Assembly: GCF_900114705.1 (NCBI RefSeq)
Contig: NZ_FOTW01000004.1
Span: 248,001-312,000, forward strand
DNA from: Rugamonas rubra
GTDB lineage: Bacteria > Pseudomonadota > Gammaproteobacteria > Burkholderiales > Burkholderiaceae_D
Length of the DNA stretch: 64,000 nucleotides
Direction of reading: 5' to 3'
Shown here piece after piece: positions 19,053 through 25,283 of the stretch (its first letter is position 1; each line of letters begins with the position of its first letter). Position numbers and translations under genes: made by a program. Below the pieces are notes generated by a model that was given only the letters and a program-made list of their open reading frames with translations, did not search any database and was not told the DNA's origin.

Positions 19053-20666
19053 TCAATGGCGCCGCGCCAGCAGGTCGGCGCGGCGGGTCAGGTCGCGCAG
19101 CACCATGCGGTACAGCTCGTCGCCGAGCACGCCGTCCTCGTTGCTGGCGTCGATGTTCGGATTGTCGTTGACCTCGATCACCACCGGCCCCCTGGCGCTC
19201 ATCTTCATGTCGACACCGTACAGGCTGTCGCCGATCAGGCGCGCGGCGCGCACGGCGTGGTCGAGGATATCGGCCGGCACCGCCTCGAGCGGCACGGCGC
19301 GGCTCAGGCCGAACTCCGCCTTGCCGTCCATGCCGCGCTTGGCGACCTGCCAGTGGCCCTTGGACATGTAGTACTGGCTGGCGAAGATGGCCTCGCCGTT
19401 GAGCACGCCGATGCGCCAGTCGAAGTCGGTGTACAGGTACTCCTGCACCAGGATCAGCGACGATTGCGCCAGCAGCTCGCGCGCGGTGCGCTCGAACTCG
19501 GCGCGGTCGGCCACCTTCGACACGCCGCGCGAGAAGGCGCCGTCGGGCACCTTCATCACCATCGGATAGCCGATCTCCCGCTCCAGCCATTGCGTGTCGC
19601 CCAGCTGGCCGGCCTGCAGCACGTAGGTGCGCGGGGTGGGGATGCCGTTCAGGCGCAGCAGGTCGGCCAGGAAGATCTTGTTGGTGCAGCGCAGGATGGA
19701 GGCGGCGTCGTCGATCACCGCCAGGCCCTCGCTCTCGGCCTGCTTGGCGAACAGATAGGTGTGGTGGTTGATGGCCGTGGTCTCGCGGATCAGCAGCGCG
19801 TCGTGGCGGGCCAGGCCGGCGAAGTCCTTCTTCTCGATCAGCGCGACGTGGATGTCGAGCTCGCGGCCGACGCGGATGAAGTTGTCGAGCGCGGCGCGGT
19901 TGCTGGGCGGCAGCGCCTCGTCCGGGTCGTGCAGGATGGCGACGTGGTGGCGCGCGCCGCGCCGCGCGCTGGCGGGCAGCGCCGGCGCGTCCGGCTGGAA
20001 GGCCTGCAGGGCGGCGCCGAACAGGGCGTGGCGGTGCGGCTCCAACGCCGCCACGTTGAGCACGCGCAGCGCGCGGATGTGCCAGTCGCCGCCGTGTTCG
20101 CCGCCGCGCTCGAACTCGGCGCGCATGGCCGGCGCCGGGAAGGTGGCGAAGATGCGCCGCGCCAGAGCGTCCAGCGGGGCGAAGTCGGCGCTGCCGAAAT
20201 GGATATCCATGGCGAACTCGGACGGCATGGGGCGGCAGTCGGGGCCGCCCAGGGCGCGGTTCAAGGCATGGTCGAGGTCGTCGATCTCGTGGCTGTAGGC
20301 GGCCTTGCGCGACAGGTCGTTGATGGTCTTCACCGAGGGGTAGACGCGGTGTCCGCGGGCCTCGGCCAGCAGCGAGCAGTAGTAGCCGAGCGACAGGTAT
20401 TTGTAGCTGCGGCACAGGTTGACGATGGTGGTGCCCGGCGCCAGTGTCGGCGCGGCGGCGTCGAGGAAGTCGGCGGCGGTCATGCAGGTGGCGCCCGGCG
20501 CCAGCGCCTGACCGTCCTGCGCGCTTTCGACCAGCAGCAGGCGGCGGCTGCCGGCGCGCGGGCGCGGCATGGGGGGCGGGTTGGCGGGCGGTTCGTCGTC
20601 GCCTTTGCTGGGTTGTTGGACCGCTTGGAGCGGCGCGGGTGCGGCGGATAGTTTGGTGGTAGTCAT
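19053..20666 (-). CDS. RimK-family ATP-grasp ligase with N-terminal RLAN-type domain
   Basis: The 537-residue protein has an N-terminal RimK-like domain (LLVESAQDG...TIVNLCRSYKYLSLGYYCSLLAE) and a C-terminal ATP-grasp ligase (residues about 290-530) with YPMVMKVPDGAFSRGVSKV, EYLYTDFDWRIGVL and VIEVNDNPNID, which bind ATP and two magnesium ions. The family joins amino acids to a carboxyl group by ATP hydrolysis; the acceptor here is unknown. The ATG at 20666 starts an MTTTKLS leader rich in Pro and Ala. It has its own 65-bp regulatory module (20763-20827). A GNAT gene lies upstream on the same strand, a common pairing for this family. Confidence 0.88.
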   Translation of the reverse strand: MTTTKLSAAPAPLQAVQQPSKGDDEPPANPPPMPRPRAGSRRLLLVESAQDGQALAPGATCMTAADFLDAAAPTLAPGTTIVNLCRSYKYLSLGYYCSLLAEARGHRVYPSVKTINDLSRKAAYSHEIDDLDHALNRALGGPDCRPMPSEFAMDIHFGSADFAPLDALARRIFATFPAPAMRAEFERGGEHGGDWHIRALRVLNVAALEPHRHALFGAALQAFQPDAPALPASARRGARHHVAILHDPDEALPPSNRAALDNFIRVGRELDIHVALIEKKDFAGLARHDALLIRETTAINHHTYLFAKQAESEGLAVIDDAASILRCTNKIFLADLLRLNGIPTPRTYVLQAGQLGDTQWLEREIGYPMVMKVPDGAFSRGVSKVADRAEFERTARELLAQSSLILVQEYLYTDFDWRIGVLNGEAIFASQYYMSKGHWQVAKRGMDGKAEFGLSRAVPLEAVPADILDHAVRAARLIGDSLYGVDMKMSARGPVVIEVNDNPNIDASNEDGVLGDELYRMVLRDLTRRADLLARRH

Positions 20667-20762: not shown

Positions 20763-20827
20763 ACTGTACCGGGACGGCTGTAAAAACCGTGCAAAGAAAG
20801 CGCCCGGTTTCATAAAAATTGAGTAAG
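20763..20827 (-). promoter_or_regulatory. 65-bp four-pentamer promoter module, copy F (RimK-like gene)
   Basis: Read on the minus strand it runs CTTAC, 6 bases, TTTAT, 16 bases, TTTGC, 6 bases, TTTAC, 11 bases, then a TACAGT -10 hexamer. The spacing is identical to the five other copies. It points at the start codon at 20666, with a leader of about 90 bases. Confidence 0.65.
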
Positions 20828-20872
20828 CGCGGCCGTGGCGGGCGGCGCGGCGCGCCCGCCGCGCAGGCGGCG

Positions 20873-21322
20873 CTAGCGCGCGCCCGCCAGCGGCTTCTCG
20901 AGCCGGTGGGCGTGCATGCCGTCCTCGTAGTAGTCGGCGTACTGGCCGAAGATGCGGTAGTCGCGGCTGTGGAACAGGCCCAGCGAGGCCTGGTTGTCGT
21001 GGCGGATTTCCAGCCGCAGGCGGTCGCAGCCACGCTCCCGCGCGGCCAGTTCGGCGCGCCGCAGCAGCGCCGCCGCCACGCCCCGGCCGAGGAAGTCGGG
21101 ATGGGTGGCGATGGTGTACAGCCGCGCCACCGAGCTGTTGGCGCGGAACAGCAGCATGAGGTAGCCGCGCGGCGCGCCGACGCGGGCGTCGAGCAGGGTC
21201 AGCGTGTTGCCGTGGCCGAGCAGGTGGCGGAAGCTGCGGCGGCTGATGCGGTCGCCGGCGAAGCTGGCGTTCTCGATGCTCAGCAGGGCGGTGATGTCCT
21301 GGGCGGTGGCGATGTGGATCAA
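20873..21322 (-). CDS. GNAT-family N-acetyltransferase (RimI-like)
   Basis: This 149-residue protein fits a single GNAT domain: strands around GYLMLLFRA, then VARLYTIATHPDFLGRGVAAALLRRAE, which contains the Q/R-x2-G-x-G/A acetyl-CoA loop (LGRGVA), and a C-terminal LGLFHSRDYRIF. RimI-type enzymes acetylate protein N-termini or small amines. It lies 21 bases after the hypothetical gene at 21344-21817, so both may be read from the promoter module at 21852-21916. The RimK-like ligase gene follows, suggesting a joint peptide- or amino-acid-modifying role (inference). Confidence 0.85.
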   Translation of the reverse strand: MIHIATAQDITALLSIENASFAGDRISRRSFRHLLGHGNTLTLLDARVGAPRGYLMLLFRANSSVARLYTIATHPDFLGRGVAAALLRRAELAARERGCDRLRLEIRHDNQASLGLFHSRDYRIFGQYADYYEDGMHAHRLEKPLAGAR

Positions 21323-21343
21323 GTCGGTTCTCGTTCGATGGTG

Positions 21344-21817
21344 TCAGTGCGGCGCCGGCAGTTGCAGGTCGAGCGCCAGGTTCAGCGCCAGCAGGCTGAC
21401 GCGCGGCTCGCCGACCCGGCCGGCCGGTTGCGGCGCGACGCTGGCCGCCAGCAGGCTGGCCACGGCGGTCGGGCTGGCGCGCCGCGTCGCCGCCACGCGC
21501 GCCACTTGTTCGTGCGCGGCGCTCAGCTCGAGGCCGGCGGCGTGGCCGGGCGGCGGCGCGCCGTTGCGGCCGGCCTGGAAGTACAGCTGGGCGAGGCGCG
21601 TCGTCGGCGGCGGCGGCGGCAGTTCGCGCTGGCTGCGCTGGCGCGCCGGCGCCGGCGCGTCGGCCCGCGTCAGCTGGGCCACGGCGCTGGCTGCCCACAG
21701 CGCGGCGGCCAGGCACAACAGGCACAACAGGCGCTGGCCGGTGCGCCGCGCCAGCGACGGCGGCGCGCGGCGCTTTGGCGGCACCGTGGTGCCGCTGTCG
21801 CAACGATGTGTCTTCAT
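21344..21817 (-). CDS. Hypothetical membrane-anchored protein
   Basis: I do not recognise this 157-residue product. It has a basic N-terminus, one hydrophobic helix or uncleaved signal (LLCLLCLAAALWAASAVA, about residues 30-48), then a Pro/Ala/Arg-rich low-complexity stretch and an ordinary C-terminal segment. The best evidence that it is real is a promoter module whose -10 hexamer ends 35 bases before the ATG, and a GGGGGG run just upstream of the start. Confidence 0.55.
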   Translation of the reverse strand: MKTHRCDSGTTVPPKRRAPPSLARRTGQRLLCLLCLAAALWAASAVAQLTRADAPAPARQRSQRELPPPPPTTRLAQLYFQAGRNGAPPPGHAAGLELSAAHEQVARVAATRRASPTAVASLLAASVAPQPAGRVGEPRVSLLALNLALDLQLPAPH

Positions 21818-21851
21818 GTCACGCCCCCCGTGTTGGCTGTCAGTGGGAGAA

Positions 21852-21916
21852 AGCTTAGCGGGATGCGGCTAAATATTTTGTAAAGAGTTGCGCGTCGGGC
21901 GTATCGGATGCGTAAA
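21852..21916 (-). promoter_or_regulatory. 65-bp four-pentamer promoter module, copy A
   Basis: Read on the minus strand: TTTAC, 6 bases, GATAC, 16 bases, TTTAC, 6 bases, TTTAG, 11 bases, then TAAGCT as -10. The predicted start of transcription, near 21845, leaves a leader of about 28 bases before the ATG at 21817. Copy B near 25 kb shares long stretches with it outside the pentamers, including AACTCTTTACA and GCTAAGCT. Confidence 0.7.
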
Positions 21917-21941
21917 AACGCCGCCCGGCCGGCGCGCCCGC

Positions 21942-23144
21942 TCAGGCCACGCGCATCAGCAGCAAGCCCTTCAGATAATCGCCTTCGGGGAAGCTGGTCA
22001 TCAAGGGATGGTCCATGCCGGCGTGCATGCGGCGCAGGATGCGGGCGTTGACCTTGGCGTCGGTGGCGGCGCCGGCGATGATCTTCTGGAACAGCTCGGC
22101 GCTGATCGCGCCCGAGCAGGAGTAGGTGAACAGCAGGCCGTTCTCGCGCAGCAGCTGCAGCGCCAGCAGGTTGACGTCCTTGTAGGCGCGCGCCGCGCGC
22201 TCGACCTGCTGCGCGGAGGAGGCGAACTTGGGCGGGTCGAGTACGATCAGGTCGAAGCTGCGGCCCTGTTGGCGCATCTGGCGCAGCAGGCCGAACACGT
22301 CGGCGTCGCACCAATGCGCCCTGGCGGGATCGAAGCCGTTCAGGTCGAAATTGCGTTTCGCCAGGGCCAGCGCGTCGCCGGCCGAGTCGACCGAGGTGAC
22401 GCCGGCGGCGCCGCCGCGCATGGCCGCCAGGGTGAAGCCGCCGGTGTAGCAGAAGCAGTTGAGCACCTCGCGTCCCTTGGCGTGCTGCATCACCAGTTGG
22501 CGGTTGTCGCGCTGGTCGATGTAGAAGCCGGTCTTGTGGCCGGTGCGCACGTTGACCGCGTAGCGCACGCCGTGCTCCTCGATGTGGATGTGTTCGGGTG
22601 GCGCCGCGCCGGCCAGCACGCCGGTGGCCTTCGCCAGGCCCTCGCGTTCGCGCACCGAGGCGTCGGAACGCTCGTAGACGTTGGCGCAGCCGGTCTGCGC
22701 CACCAGGGCCTGCACGATCTCGCCCTTCCAGCTGTCGACCCCGGCCGACTGGAACTGGCAGACGAGGTGGCCGTCGCGGCCGCCATACCAGTCGACCACC
22801 AGTCCGGGGAAGCCGTCGGCCTCGCCGAACACCAGGCGCACCGCGTCGGTGCCGTGCACGTTGGCGGCGCGGTAGGCCAGGGCCTTGCCGATCTGTTTGC
22901 CGATGAAGGCCGGGTCGACCGCTTCGTCGTCGAAGGTCCACATGCGGGCGCAGATTTTCGAACTCGGATTGTAGGCCGCGCGGGCCAGCAGCTCGCCGCT
23001 GGCCGAGCGCACCAGCGCGGTGGCGCCGGGCGGGGGGGCGGCGCCCGCCTGGCCGTCGACGCGAGCGATCGAGGCGGGGAAGATCCAGGGGTGGCGCCGC
23101 AGCAGGCTTTTTTCCTTGCCTGGCTTGAGAGTGAGAGTGAGCAT
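21942..23144 (-). CDS. rlmI: 23S rRNA (cytosine-5) methyltransferase RlmI
   Basis: The 400-residue protein starts MLTLTLKPGKEKSLLRRHPW, the usual N-terminus of RlmI, with a PUA domain (about residues 1-75). The methyltransferase part shows YIDQRDNRQLV, NCFCYTGGFTLAAM (SAM-binding motif I), VLDPPKF and TYSCSG with the likely catalytic Cys. RlmI methylates C1962 of 23S rRNA in E. coli. I chose the start at 23144 over in-frame starts further upstream (for example 23195) because it matches the family start. A promoter module (23256-23320) lies about 110 bases upstream. Confidence 0.9.
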   Translation of the reverse strand: MLTLTLKPGKEKSLLRRHPWIFPASIARVDGQAGAAPPPGATALVRSASGELLARAAYNPSSKICARMWTFDDEAVDPAFIGKQIGKALAYRAANVHGTDAVRLVFGEADGFPGLVVDWYGGRDGHLVCQFQSAGVDSWKGEIVQALVAQTGCANVYERSDASVREREGLAKATGVLAGAAPPEHIHIEEHGVRYAVNVRTGHKTGFYIDQRDNRQLVMQHAKGREVLNCFCYTGGFTLAAMRGGAAGVTSVDSAGDALALAKRNFDLNGFDPARAHWCDADVFGLLRQMRQQGRSFDLIVLDPPKFASSAQQVERAARAYKDVNLLALQLLRENGLLFTYSCSGAISAELFQKIIAGAATDAKVNARILRRMHAGMDHPLMTSFPEGDYLKGLLLMRVA

Positions 23145-23255
23145 GTGGGATGGACGGGAGGGTTGCTGGCGCTTGCGCTGGGCGCCATGGATCAATGGGA
23201 TGGCTGTGGCGGCTGCGCCGGCACCGGCGGGGCACGGCCCGGGCCCCCTGGCGGA

Positions 23256-23320
23256 AATATACCGGCGAAGGCATAAACGCCGCGTAAATTGCCGGGCTTA
23301 TCCCGTCAAGATTGTGTAAA
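23256..23320 (-). promoter_or_regulatory. 65-bp four-pentamer promoter module, copy D (rlmI)
   Basis: Read on the minus strand: TTTAC, 6 bases, TTGAC, 16 bases, TTTAC, 6 bases, TTTAT, 11 bases, then TATATT as -10. The spacing is exactly that of the other copies. It lies in the 308-base gene-free stretch 23145-23452, together with copy E on the other strand; nothing else was seen there. Confidence 0.65.
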
Positions 23321-23353
23321 TCCGCGCCCCGCCTCGACGTTTCTTCGCGCATC

Positions 23354-23418
23354 TATATACCGCCCATACGACTTCGGCCGGATCTTTTAGAAAATTTTTA
23401 CAGTCGAACTGTTAACCT
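23354..23418 (+). promoter_or_regulatory. 65-bp four-pentamer promoter module, copy E
   Basis: On the plus strand: TATAT, 6 bases, CATAC, 16 bases, TTTAG, 6 bases, TTTAC, 11 bases, then TAACCT as -10. The first pentamer is the weakest of all copies. Transcription would begin near 23425, 28 bases before the ATG at 23453. Confidence 0.65.
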
Positions 23419-23452
23419 TTTCAGTACATAAACACTTAGTCGGAAGGTCGTC

Positions 23453-23767
23453 ATGCGCTTTCCCCTGCTGCCGACACGGCGTCGGCGCGCGGCCGTCCGG
23501 CCCTGTCCGCTGTGCATCGTCCACCTGGACATCGCGGCCGAATCGCTCACCACCCTGCGGCAGATCGTCTTCCGTGTCGCCGGCGACGCGCTGCGCTTCG
23601 TCCGTGCCGAGGCCTATCAGCACAACAGCAGAATGCGCGTCGCGCTGTGCCTGACGGAGGCGGCGGCGGGCGCCGTCGTCGACGCCGTCGGGCGGTTTTT
23701 ACCGGACGCCAGGCTGTGCCGGCTGGCGCCAATCACACTGACTCAAACGGAGGGAAAGACAGCATGA
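23453..23767 (+). CDS. Small hypothetical protein, possible ACT-like fold
   Basis: This 104-residue protein has a basic N-terminus, a CPLC pair and a pattern of alternating strands and helices (IVHLDIAAESLTTLRQIVFRV...MRVALCLTEAAAGAVVDAVGRF) that resembles a small regulatory ACT-like domain. That likeness is by eye only. GGAAGG lies upstream of the ATG. Its stop overlaps the next start as ATGA, so the two small genes are translationally coupled and are served by promoter module E. Confidence 0.6.
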   Translation: MRFPLLPTRRRRAAVRPCPLCIVHLDIAAESLTTLRQIVFRVAGDALRFVRAEAYQHNSRMRVALCLTEAAAGAVVDAVGRFLPDARLCRLAPITLTQTEGKTA

Positions 23768-23925
23768 TCATCGCCATCGTCAATCAAGCGGGCGCCCGTC
23801 GCAGGGGGCTTGTCGCCAACAAGCTGGCGGTGCTGCGCACCCGCAGCGGCCGCAAGGTGCCGCTGGCCGACGCGTTCGACTGCGGCCAGGGGCGCTGCGC
23901 CTGCGCCGCCGCCCGGGCTATTTGA
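23764..23925 (+). CDS. Small Cys/Arg-rich hypothetical protein
   Basis: A 53-residue product beginning MIIAIVNQAGARRRG and ending with a Cys-containing tail (DCGQGRCACAA). It is coupled to the preceding gene by an ATGA overlap, and GGAGG lies shortly before the start. The final 8 bases overlap the convergent GNAT gene. No family is recognised; the paired Cys residues could bind metal or form a disulfide. Confidence 0.5.
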   Translation: MIIAIVNQAGARRRGLVANKLAVLRTRSGRKVPLADAFDCGQGRCACAAARAI

Positions 23926-24490
23926 CTAGGTGCAGCGCAGGGGCGCCGCCGCGCCAGTCGCCGCGCAGCAGGCCGTACAACTGCGTGTCGTGCTTCTTGC
24001 CGTCGACGATCCAACGTTCGCGCAGACAGCCCTCGTGGCGGAAGCCCAGTCTTTCCAGGGCCGCCACGGAGCCGGTGTTGCCACGGTTGACGTCGGCCTC
24101 GATGCGGTTGAGGCCGAGCTCGCCGAAGGCGTGCTCCAGCAGCGCGCGCATCGCCTCCGACAGATAGCCTTGGCGCCAGTAGGGTTTGGCCAGCAGGTAG
24201 CCGAGGCTGGCGCAGCCGTGCTGCGGCACGAAGGCGTAGAGGGCGCAGCTGCCGATCAGTGCGCCGCTGGCGCTGTGCTCGATCGCGCAGTGCAGGGCGG
24301 CGCCGCTGGCGTAGTCCGCCCCGGCCTCGGCGATGGCCGCCTCGGCCTGGTCGAGCGTGGTCCATGGCGCGTGGTTCCAGTAGCGCATGACCTCGGGGTC
24401 GGCGTACAGCTCAAGCAAGGCCTTGGCGTCGCGGTCCTCCAGCAGGCGCAGCCTGATGCGCTTGGCGGTGAGATTGAAGGTGGAATGCAT
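23918..24490 (-). CDS. RimJ/RimL-type GNAT N-acetyltransferase
   Basis: The 190-residue protein begins TAKRIRLRLLEDRDAKALLELYADPEVMRYW, a typical start of the RimJ/RimL branch. It carries the acetyl-CoA loop in SLGYLLAKPYWRQGYLSEAMRALLEHAF, the N-x-GS-x2-LERLGF motif and a terminal DTQLYGLLRGDW. Members acetylate ribosomal proteins, antibiotics or amines. Its start overlaps the end of the reading frame for a small membrane protein at 24411-24773, so the two may form an operon under promoter module C. Confidence 0.88.
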   Translation of the reverse strand: MHSTFNLTAKRIRLRLLEDRDAKALLELYADPEVMRYWNHAPWTTLDQAEAAIAEAGADYASGAALHCAIEHSASGALIGSCALYAFVPQHGCASLGYLLAKPYWRQGYLSEAMRALLEHAFGELGLNRIEADVNRGNTGSVAALERLGFRHEGCLRERWIVDGKKHDTQLYGLLRGDWRGGAPALHLVK

Positions 24491-24773
24491 AGGCGGGGGC
24501 GGGCGAAAGGGATGGGTTGGTGCTGCGTTCGGCGTGCGCCGACGGCGCACTGCCGATGACGGCCGGCGGCGGCGGTATGTTAGTCGCGCCTTCGGCGAGC
24601 AGCAGGGAGATCACGGTGTACCAAAGCAGGACCACGGCGGCGATCATGGCCGTCCAAAACACGGCGTAGCCGTTCAGGCCGTGCCTGTCCTGGCCCGCCG
24701 CGTTGTCGTGGCGGACGCGGCGAACCCGGCCGCGGTTGTGTCGATGGTAGCGTTCCTGGTTCATTTGCAGCAT
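24411..24773 (-). CDS. Small single-pass membrane protein
   Basis: A 120-residue reading frame with a His/Arg-rich N-terminus, one strong transmembrane helix (YAVFWTAMIAAVVLLWYTVISLLL, about residues 36-59) and a Pro-rich tail. GGAG lies 9 bases before the ATG at 24773. The last 80 bases overlap the GNAT gene in another frame, so the C-terminal part may be shorter in reality if sequence errors exist. A promoter module points at it. The function is unknown. Confidence 0.5.
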   Translation of the reverse strand: MLQMNQERYHRHNRGRVRRVRHDNAAGQDRHGLNGYAVFWTAMIAAVVLLWYTVISLLLAEGATNIPPPPAVIGSAPSAHAERSTNPSLSPAPAYAFHLQSHRQAHQAAPAGGPRRQGLA

Positions 24774-24874
24774 GGCGTTGGGCTCCAAGGTCGGGAAGGA
24801 AGACAGCGATGACGCCGCCGCCCGGTGCGGCCGGATCGTGGCGGCGTGGACATGCGCTTTGTGCGTCACTTGGA

Positions 24875-24939
24875 ATGTTAGCGGTCTGGACGTAAAAACG
24901 TCATAAACAGTGCGTCCGTTCTTGTATACGCCGCGTAAA
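24875..24939 (-). promoter_or_regulatory. 65-bp four-pentamer promoter module, copy C
   Basis: Read on the minus strand: TTTAC, 6 bases, TATAC, 16 bases, TTTAT, 6 bases, TTTAC, 11 bases, then TAACAT as -10. The leader to the ATG at 24773 would be about 95 bases. Confidence 0.65.
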
Positions 24940-25004
24940 TATTGTTCGCGCTTGAGTCGCTGCGGGTGCCATCAATGCTGGCGGCCGGTTTGCTGGAGGT
25001 GGTT

Positions 25005-25069
25005 TTTATGCCGTGTATGCGCGCCGGGCACAACTCTTTACACCAATTTTAGACGCGCCTGGCTAAGCT
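25005..25069 (+). promoter_or_regulatory. 65-bp four-pentamer promoter module, copy B
   Basis: On the plus strand: TTTAT, 6 bases, TATGC, 16 bases, TTTAC, 6 bases, TTTAG, 11 bases, then TAAGCT as -10. Transcription would start near 25076, about 28 bases before the ATG at 25104, the same leader length as copies A and E. Confidence 0.7.
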
Positions 25070-25103: not shown

Positions 25104-25283
25104 ATGAGTGGACATTCTTCTTTCGAGCACGGCGCCGCCAAGGTGTGGCGCGAACCGGACCGCTGCGCGCGGCTGGCGCGGGCGCGGCGCGCCAGCCGTG
25201 GCATCGCCTATCTGGTGGTGACCATGGTGGCGGCCGGTATGTCGCTGCATGTGCTGCTGGCTTGGTGGGGCGCGGGGCGCTGA
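25104..25283 (+). CDS. Small membrane protein
   Basis: A 59-residue product with an Arg-rich cytoplasmic start (CARLARARRASRG) and one C-terminal transmembrane helix (IAYLVVTMVAAGMSLHVLLAWW). A purine-rich GGGGCGAGGG lies just before the ATG, and promoter module B is positioned 28 bases upstream of it. The function is unknown. The topology matches the other small membrane proteins of this region. Confidence 0.6.
   Translation: MSGHSSFEHGAAKVWREPDRCARLARARRASRGIAYLVVTMVAAGMSLHVLLAWWGAGR

Follow-up and report, generated by a model that had tools for sequence, protein, structure and literature searches.

Introduction

Response regulators of the OmpR family bind direct repeats of similar size, and at the class II promoters served by PhoB and OmpR tandem direct repeats with a period of 10 to 11 bp replace the -35 element. 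One member of the family, KdpE, activates kdp together with KdpD at low potassium. The present work concerns a 64,000-nucleotide stretch of the Rugamonas rubra genome (contig NZ_FOTW01000004.1, positions 248,001 to 312,000 of the forward strand; hereafter the window, numbered from its first letter), in which six promoters share a 65-bp module made of two pairs of TTTAC-like pentamers and a -10 hexamer, a layout that is also that of the kdp promoter.

In the open-access literature, PMC8249747 classes Escherichia coli KdpE as a single-target regulator and PMC7657598 gives kdpFABC as its sole target, although the latter study itself records 31 peaks by chromatin immunoprecipitation with exonuclease digestion and counts adeP, uxaA, and uxaC among the direct targets as well. 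The DNA-binding residues R193, R200, and T215 are named in work on the structure and binding of KdpE, which also describes the half-sites TTTATA and TTTACA, 5 bp apart, with a cited footprint from -72 to -50 (PMC3264566). According to PMC5401905, four species already had identified KdpE sites in their kdpF promoters; the site of that study in Mycobacterium smegmatis, also in the kdpFABC promoter, is a 22-bp A-rich motif that its authors consider unlike that of E. coli. Based on the comparisons reported below, we propose, with a probability of roughly 0.87, that the six modules are KdpE-dependent promoters of the sigma-70 type and that the potassium-limitation (Kdp) regulon is extended locally in the window.

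Results

Six promoters with one architecture

The first-pass annotation of the window had described the six modules, and their coordinates, strands, and spacing were all verified. On the minus strand they lie at 20763..20827, in front of a gene for a RimK-like ligase (CTTAC-TTTAT, then TTTGC-TTTAC, with TACAGT as -10); at 21852..21916, in front of a unit encoding a KdpC-tail protein and GNAT acetyltransferase 1 (-10 TAAGCT, the second upstream pentamer being the degenerate GATAC); at 23256..23320, in front of rlmI (TATATT); and at 24875..24939, in front of a unit encoding a small membrane protein and GNAT acetyltransferase 2 (TAACAT). On the plus strand they lie at 23354..23418, in front of p104 and a ParA remnant (TAACCT, with the weakest upstream pair, TATAT/CATAC), and at 25005..25069, in front of p59 (TAAGCT). 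Each transcription unit named in that annotation thus has its module. The spacing is 5-6-5-16-5-6-5-11-6 at all six. The leaders of the promoters at 21852, 23354, and 25005 are of equal length, with 34 nucleotides from the -10 to the ATG. By eye, no TTGACA-like -35 stands 17 bp upstream of the -10 at any of the six modules, and direct repeats of this kind are typical of the OmpR family.

Written as TTTA-N7-TTTA-N17-TTTA-N7-TTTA-N12-TANNNT, the full pattern has 19 scored letters (four TTTA and the TA...T of the -10), and every window module matches 16 to 18 of them. The downstream half, TTTA-N7-TTTA-N12-TANNNT, which leaves out the upstream pair, gave 11 window matches at up to two mismatches, all six modules included; in 100 dinucleotide shuffles of the window the same search gave a mean of 0.39 matches and at most 2, so that the pattern is far more frequent here than chance would have it. 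A stricter pattern with C as the fifth letter in three pentamers found nothing, because the fifth pentamer letter varies.

The same layout at kdp promoters

About 10 kb to the left of the window start, a module matching all 19 letters (L123:9610-9674, or C46:237609-237673) precedes a complete kdp operon. A 30-residue open reading frame (ORF) begins 37 nucleotides downstream of it, followed by a KdpF-like ORF (by eye) and by kdpA, kdpB, kdpC, kdpD, and kdpE; the operon was read in L123 and L253, and KdpABC, KdpD, and KdpE are thus all encoded in the genome. The E. coli K-12 kdpFABC promoter, for whose regulator KdpE structures are on record (PDB 4KNY and 4KFC), follows the same 65-bp plan, TTTAT-N6-TTTAC-N16-TTTGC-N6-TTTGC-N11-TACCCT, with 17 of the 19 letters, and the distance from the pairs to the -10-like hexamer is the same there as in the window modules. 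The S1/S2 half-sites published for KdpE (PMC3264566) are its upstream pair, TTTAT-N6-TTTAC; the sixth letter of the published half-sites, A, is absent at most R. rubra sites. Its downstream pair, TTTGC-N6-TTTGC, is not described as a KdpE site in the literature consulted. Hence, the architecture is less novel than the first-pass annotation had supposed. The first pair of the kdp layout is already known as a KdpE site, and what is new, as far as our searches show, is the size of the regulon and a further pair downstream, whose phase to the -10 is fixed. Searches of the open-access literature turned up neither a second box pair nor an enlarged KdpE regulon in Burkholderiales; as subscription papers such as the original E. 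coli footprint paper lie outside it, this absence carries little weight.

Within the genus, kdpA is present in 38 of 40 genomes, that of R. rubra included. A module matching 19 of 19 letters stands at all 30 kdp loci that were fetched (from R. rubra and 29 relatives), and in the other eight genomes with kdpA, judged by coordinates, a module lies before kdpA, exact in seven and with one mismatch in G002, where it sits ahead of a porin gene. The full pattern at up to two mismatches gave 113 matches in the 40 genomes against 8 for the control, with at least two matches in 31 of the 38 genomes having any. In a sample of 100 genomes of the order, 33 (R. rubra included) have kdpA; 29 of the other loci were fetched, 28 with enough upstream sequence, and 19 of these 28 kdpA-upstream regions, all from outside the genus, score at least 16, a score reached by 0.07% of 1400 shuffled regions.

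The first-pass annotation had suggested a scan with a fixed-spacing matrix. A matrix was built from these 19 kdp promoters of other genera, its register set via the pattern of that annotation and no window sequence included; it ranks the six modules 1 to 6 in the window at 21.5 to 41.1 bits, with the next position at 2.0 bits and the best of 60 shuffled windows at 5.3. The modules again take ranks 1 to 6 with a matrix of 29 kdpF promoters from the same genus. Chance, or an artefact of AT-rich sequence, is excluded by the shuffles, by the reversed-pattern controls, and by the matrix trained outside.

When 25 loci were anchored on the upstream pair only, 17 had TTTA-like letters again at +43, 14 had them at +32, and 15 had TANNNT at +59, the medians over offsets being 2 and 0; in 12 further loci of the phylum, the corresponding counts were 10, 6, and 4. 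A profile built on 40 sites (R1) recovers the E. coli K-12 kdp promoter, which lies outside its training set, at 29.7 bits (E = 1e-7). In a phylum sample of 299 genomes, R1 gave 22 hits in 15 genomes other than R. rubra. Fourteen are upstream of and co-directional with kdpA, as judged by position and direction with intervening genes possible, and include three training sequences; one lies before kdpD, and four lie before genes for dihydrodipicolinate synthase (DHDPS)-like, p116-like, or ParA-like proteins. One further hit (L278) is adjacent to a gene that looks by eye like kup; it points away from that gene and was not counted as a kup site.

Sites across the Rugamonas rubra genome

With no mismatch allowed, the downstream half occurs 12 times in the 6.83-Mb genome and once as a reversed control. 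Five of the 12 are window modules, and the upstream pair, although absent from the search pattern, is present at six of the seven elsewhere; the exact match at C37:79598, AT-rich and without the upstream pair, was discarded as chance. The full pattern gave 13 matches against none for the control at up to two mismatches, compared with a median of 3 matches in the 39 relatives, and 15 against 4 at up to three, which means that weak matches alone prove nothing. An R1 scan gave 14 sites at E values of 1.3e-4 or lower, the next being at 0.09; since all 14 belong to the training set of R1, all that follows is that no other site is conspicuous. A 15th site, C19:33679, has an R1 E value of only 0.3, and homologues of its gene lie behind a module in L208 and behind a weak module in L207. 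Nine of the 14 sites fall within 40 kb of contig C46 (233850-273069). The KdpE regulon would thus appear to comprise 14 to 15 sites, six of them in the window, and it is local in part only, contrary to the earlier description; it would cover the RimK-type ligase, the GNATs, RlmI, the KdpC-tail protein, a PII/ACT-like protein, and small membrane proteins. At L124:8332-9042, two modules face each other over about 580 bp, with membrane protein ORFs of 59 and 98 residues, one per side.

Conservation at other promoters

Orthologues of rimK (62 to 65% identity) were found in 2 of 12 relatives searched, G019 (L204) and G022 (L207), and both stand behind a module with the identical -10, TACAGT. The gene order in G019 is kdpE, module, gnat1, module, rimK, vwa, the module of the gnat1 orthologue lying about 310 bp upstream of it. 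The G019 unit of small membrane protein and GNAT2 (L202) likewise has a module with the identical -10, TAACAT. Beside kdp, a unit of p116 and ParA, paralogous to the p104-ParA unit of the window, has a module in L123, L203, L205, L209, and L213, and in these loci and L214 modules occur in varying combination at p116-ParA, a DHDPS-like gene, and a TorF-type porin gene. The kdpA-vwa gap measures 6 to 10 kb in G004, G015, G019, G026, and G038 and 34 kb in R. rubra. This difference and the gene order of G019 suggest that the window cluster is a long-standing part of the kdp surroundings, with about 21 kb of other genes now lying between it and kdpE.

Two side observations were made in other loci. 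In three genomes (L207:8374, L208:7372, and L212:6680), a member of one family of proteins of about 130 residues is encoded downstream of a module, strong or weak, the L208 member matching DUF6697 at 20.6 bits, just under the Pfam cut-off of 23.9. At L211:6625-6689, a module stands 119 nucleotides before a gene for a CNNM/CorC-type membrane protein (Pfam PF01595, E = 9.3e-37).

Genes behind the window modules

The RimK-like ATP-grasp ligase with an RLAN domain (19053..20666, minus strand; 537 residues) matches Pfam PF14401 (E = 2.6e-42) and PF08443 (E = 1.4e-7), and GNAT acetyltransferase 1 (20873..21322, minus strand) matches PF00583 (E = 2.9e-13); a role of this ligase-acetyltransferase pair in osmotic or potassium homeostasis would be a guess. 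The KdpC-tail protein (21344..21817, minus strand; 157 residues) joins an N-terminal hydrophobic stretch, seen by eye, to the last 53 residues of KdpC. It reaches 37.4 bits with Pfam KdpC (PF02669, cut-off 24.1; profile positions 129-181 of 182), matches the NCBIfam KdpC models below their full-length cut-offs, and is 47% identical to the tail of KdpC from the same genome. A KdpC C-terminal domain is thus found on an unrelated N terminus, away from the kdp operon and behind a Kdp-type promoter, and the protein is possibly a regulator or a mimic of KdpC.

The RlmI-like rRNA methyltransferase (21942..23144, minus strand) matches PF10672 and PF17785. Among the 40 sampled genomes of the genus, full-length RlmI occurs only in R. 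rubra, and no orthologous promoter is available in them for comparison with the module at 23256. RlmI was unusable as a synteny anchor, because the sampled genomes are without the full gene and no close relative occurred among the named loci retrieved. A second RlmI homologue is present in all 40 genomes (45 to 52% identity), with a match that stops near residue 204, in the N-terminal half; in the two copies read (C42:191590-192213 of R. rubra, which is L126, and L083), the frame ends directly after the match and the methyltransferase domain is missing.

The p104 protein (23453..23767, plus strand) matches no Pfam family and is a paralogue, 44% identical, of the p116 protein encoded beside kdp. 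A structure model of p116 has a beta-alpha-beta-beta-alpha-beta order with a mean predicted local distance difference test score of 75.8 (above 90 in the core), and a fold search with it returned weak PII-like and ACT-like matches (best E value 1.9e-3, none below 1e-3); a PII/ACT-like fold is therefore predicted for p116. The adjacent 53-residue ORF (23766..23927, plus strand) is the remnant of a ParA N terminus, 62% identical over 34 residues to the ParA encoded beside kdp. GNAT acetyltransferase 2 (23921..24490, minus strand) matches PF13302 (E = 9e-35), and the small membrane protein ORF ahead of it (24411..24773, minus strand, in the ORF list; 120 residues from this ATG), queried with its first 97 residues, has a homologue, 37% identical over 62 residues, before GNAT2 in L202. 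The p59 protein (25104..25283, plus strand), a single-pass small membrane protein, aligns with four other single-pass proteins of about 60 residues at 49, 36, 31, and 23% identity, and all are encoded behind modules. PADLOC gave no match for the seven proteins scanned.

Discussion

The regulator of the six window promoters is most likely KdpE, because the kdp promoters share the layout of the modules and because a matrix made from kdp promoters of other genera places the window modules on ranks 1 to 6. KdpE of R. rubra is 65% identical to E. coli KdpE, and R193, R200, and T215 are conserved in it as well as in a second homologue, KdpE2. From the sequence comparisons, we infer binding of the modules by KdpE and their induction at low potassium. 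When potassium is short, KdpD would phosphorylate KdpE, as is known for E. coli. One KdpE dimer would then occupy the upstream pair, TTTAY-N6-TTTAY, at about -72 to -50, and a second dimer would sit on the downstream pair, three helical turns further on, over the missing -35; together, they would position RNA polymerase on the TANNNT hexamer exactly 11 bp downstream, with transcription starting a few bases after it. We propose two dimers because the four pentamers and the -10 keep a strict phase across families. The operon kdpFABCDE would in this way be switched on jointly with the RimK-type ligase, the two GNATs, RlmI, the KdpC-tail protein, p104, and two small membrane proteins. The modules resemble the class II promoters of PhoB and OmpR in their tandem repeats, their 10- to 11-bp period, and their location in place of the -35; they differ in the letters of the half-sites and in having two pairs at a constant distance of 16 bp, the third pentamer lying 32 bp from the first.

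Several observations weigh against a KdpE regulon of this kind. The TTTA-N7-TTTA core of the upstream pair, which keeps 7 or 8 of its 8 letters at 11 of the 14 strong sites, is degenerate at 21852 and 25005 (6 of 8 letters) and at 23354 (5 of 8). The spacing, said in the first-pass annotation never to vary, is constant in the window, but at the promoter of the p59 orthologue in the close relative G012 (L216:1202-1264), a weak module with an E value of 9.5e-4, the gap between the box pairs is 1 bp shorter. Conservation at orthologous promoters holds for rimK in G019 and G022 and for the small membrane protein-GNAT2 unit in G019, but the GNAT2 homologue of G022 (L207) has no module in its direction. 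Outside the genus, 9 of the 28 kdp promoters score below 16, some without a recognisable module. With the same-genus kdpF matrix, which is over-tight, four of the six modules score below zero, and the one at 23256 scores -54.1, less than the best shuffled window does (-50.4). Three of the 22 phylum hits are unexplained (L264, L269, and L278), and the phylum scan is insensitive, as it missed the kdp promoter of G070, itself a training sequence, at an E value of 0.001. The two genomes of the genus without any module at up to two mismatches, G017 and G034, are the two without kdpA, but this co-absence concerns two genomes only and is partly trivial, as the kdp promoter counts among the sites. Finally, a genome with two KdpE homologues leaves either of them as the acting one.

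The last point leads to the strongest rival, namely that the window promoters are served by KdpE2 (contig C24) and not by the KdpE of the kdp operon. KdpE2 is 68% identical to KdpE, keeps the contact residues, and has KdpE as its best NCBIfam match, under the cut-off of that model; its gene stands behind its own module and is divergent from a gene for a GGDEF/EAL protein that also has one (L125:5828-9096). We nevertheless consider this rival doubtful, since the same module marks kdp promoters across the order, in a comparison based on kdpA loci, and KdpE and KdpE2 probably share sites. No kinase gene was found among the listed ORFs neighbouring KdpE2. Of note, the divergent pair of KdpE2 and the GGDEF/EAL protein raises the possibility of a link between potassium and cyclic-di-GMP.

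It is unlikely that the modules have no function and were left behind by a duplication of the kdp neighbourhood (p116-ParA and KdpC), dragged along with gene fragments. The KdpC tail, p104, and the ParA remnant do resemble pieces of that neighbourhood, and vwa, which neighbours the cluster, in relatives and gnat1 and rimK in G019 adjoin kdp. However, intact genes unrelated to kdp carry modules, the orthologous promoters of rimK and of the small membrane protein-GNAT2 unit have them with identical -10 hexamers, and pentamers and spacing have been retained while the intervening bases differ.

Use of the boxes by another OmpR-family regulator, such as CpxR, PhoP, or OmpR, is very improbable. Repeats of similar size occur throughout the family, and the GTAAA within CpxR boxes is complementary to TTTAC; yet CpxR sites read GTAAA-N5-GTAAA, with repeats spaced by 5 bp, and the pentamer gap is 6 at all six window modules (for the other sites, the gap was set by the search pattern). 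PhoP sites read (G/T)GTTTA-N5-(G/T)GTTTA, and by eye only 5 of the 24 pentamers of the window modules have a G before them, so that the PhoP box was rejected. As it is kdp promoters that the module marks, in the order as well as the phylum, all three were rejected as the regulator, and the first-pass guess of an OmpR/CpxR-type protein is supported as to the family and not as to CpxR or OmpR itself. Least likely of all is that an alternative sigma factor reads the repeats as part of an extended promoter. Although every element keeps a fixed distance to the -10, the pair that corresponds in E. coli to the upstream one is a footprinted KdpE site, as described in the binding study (PMC3264566), and the -10 varies within the sigma-70 type.

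With KdpE as the preferred regulator, we lean, with some reserve, towards a broader view: in many Pseudomonadota, among them E. coli, KdpE promoters may carry a second, hitherto unrecognised pair of KdpE boxes over the -35, and within a single burkholderial genus KdpE may have grown from a nearly single-target switch to one of up to 14 to 15 promoters with accessory cargo, a potassium-starvation programme that goes beyond ion uptake. The cargo would consist of the ligase-acetyltransferase cassette, small membrane proteins, PII/ACT-like and ParA units, a porin, and the second KdpE with its cyclic-di-GMP enzyme. KdpE is listed as a single-target regulator in E. coli and apparently has a dozen or more promoters here, which would show how the reach of such a switch can grow; the promoter is so stereotyped that the members of the regulon may be recognised in the sequence itself. 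From the conserved second pair, one would predict that in E. coli K-12 a second KdpE dimer sits over the -35, which, if true, would explain kdp transcription without a -35 element. Small membrane proteins, PII/ACT-like proteins, and the RimK-GNAT cassette would thereby gain a physiological context, that of low potassium or osmotic stress.

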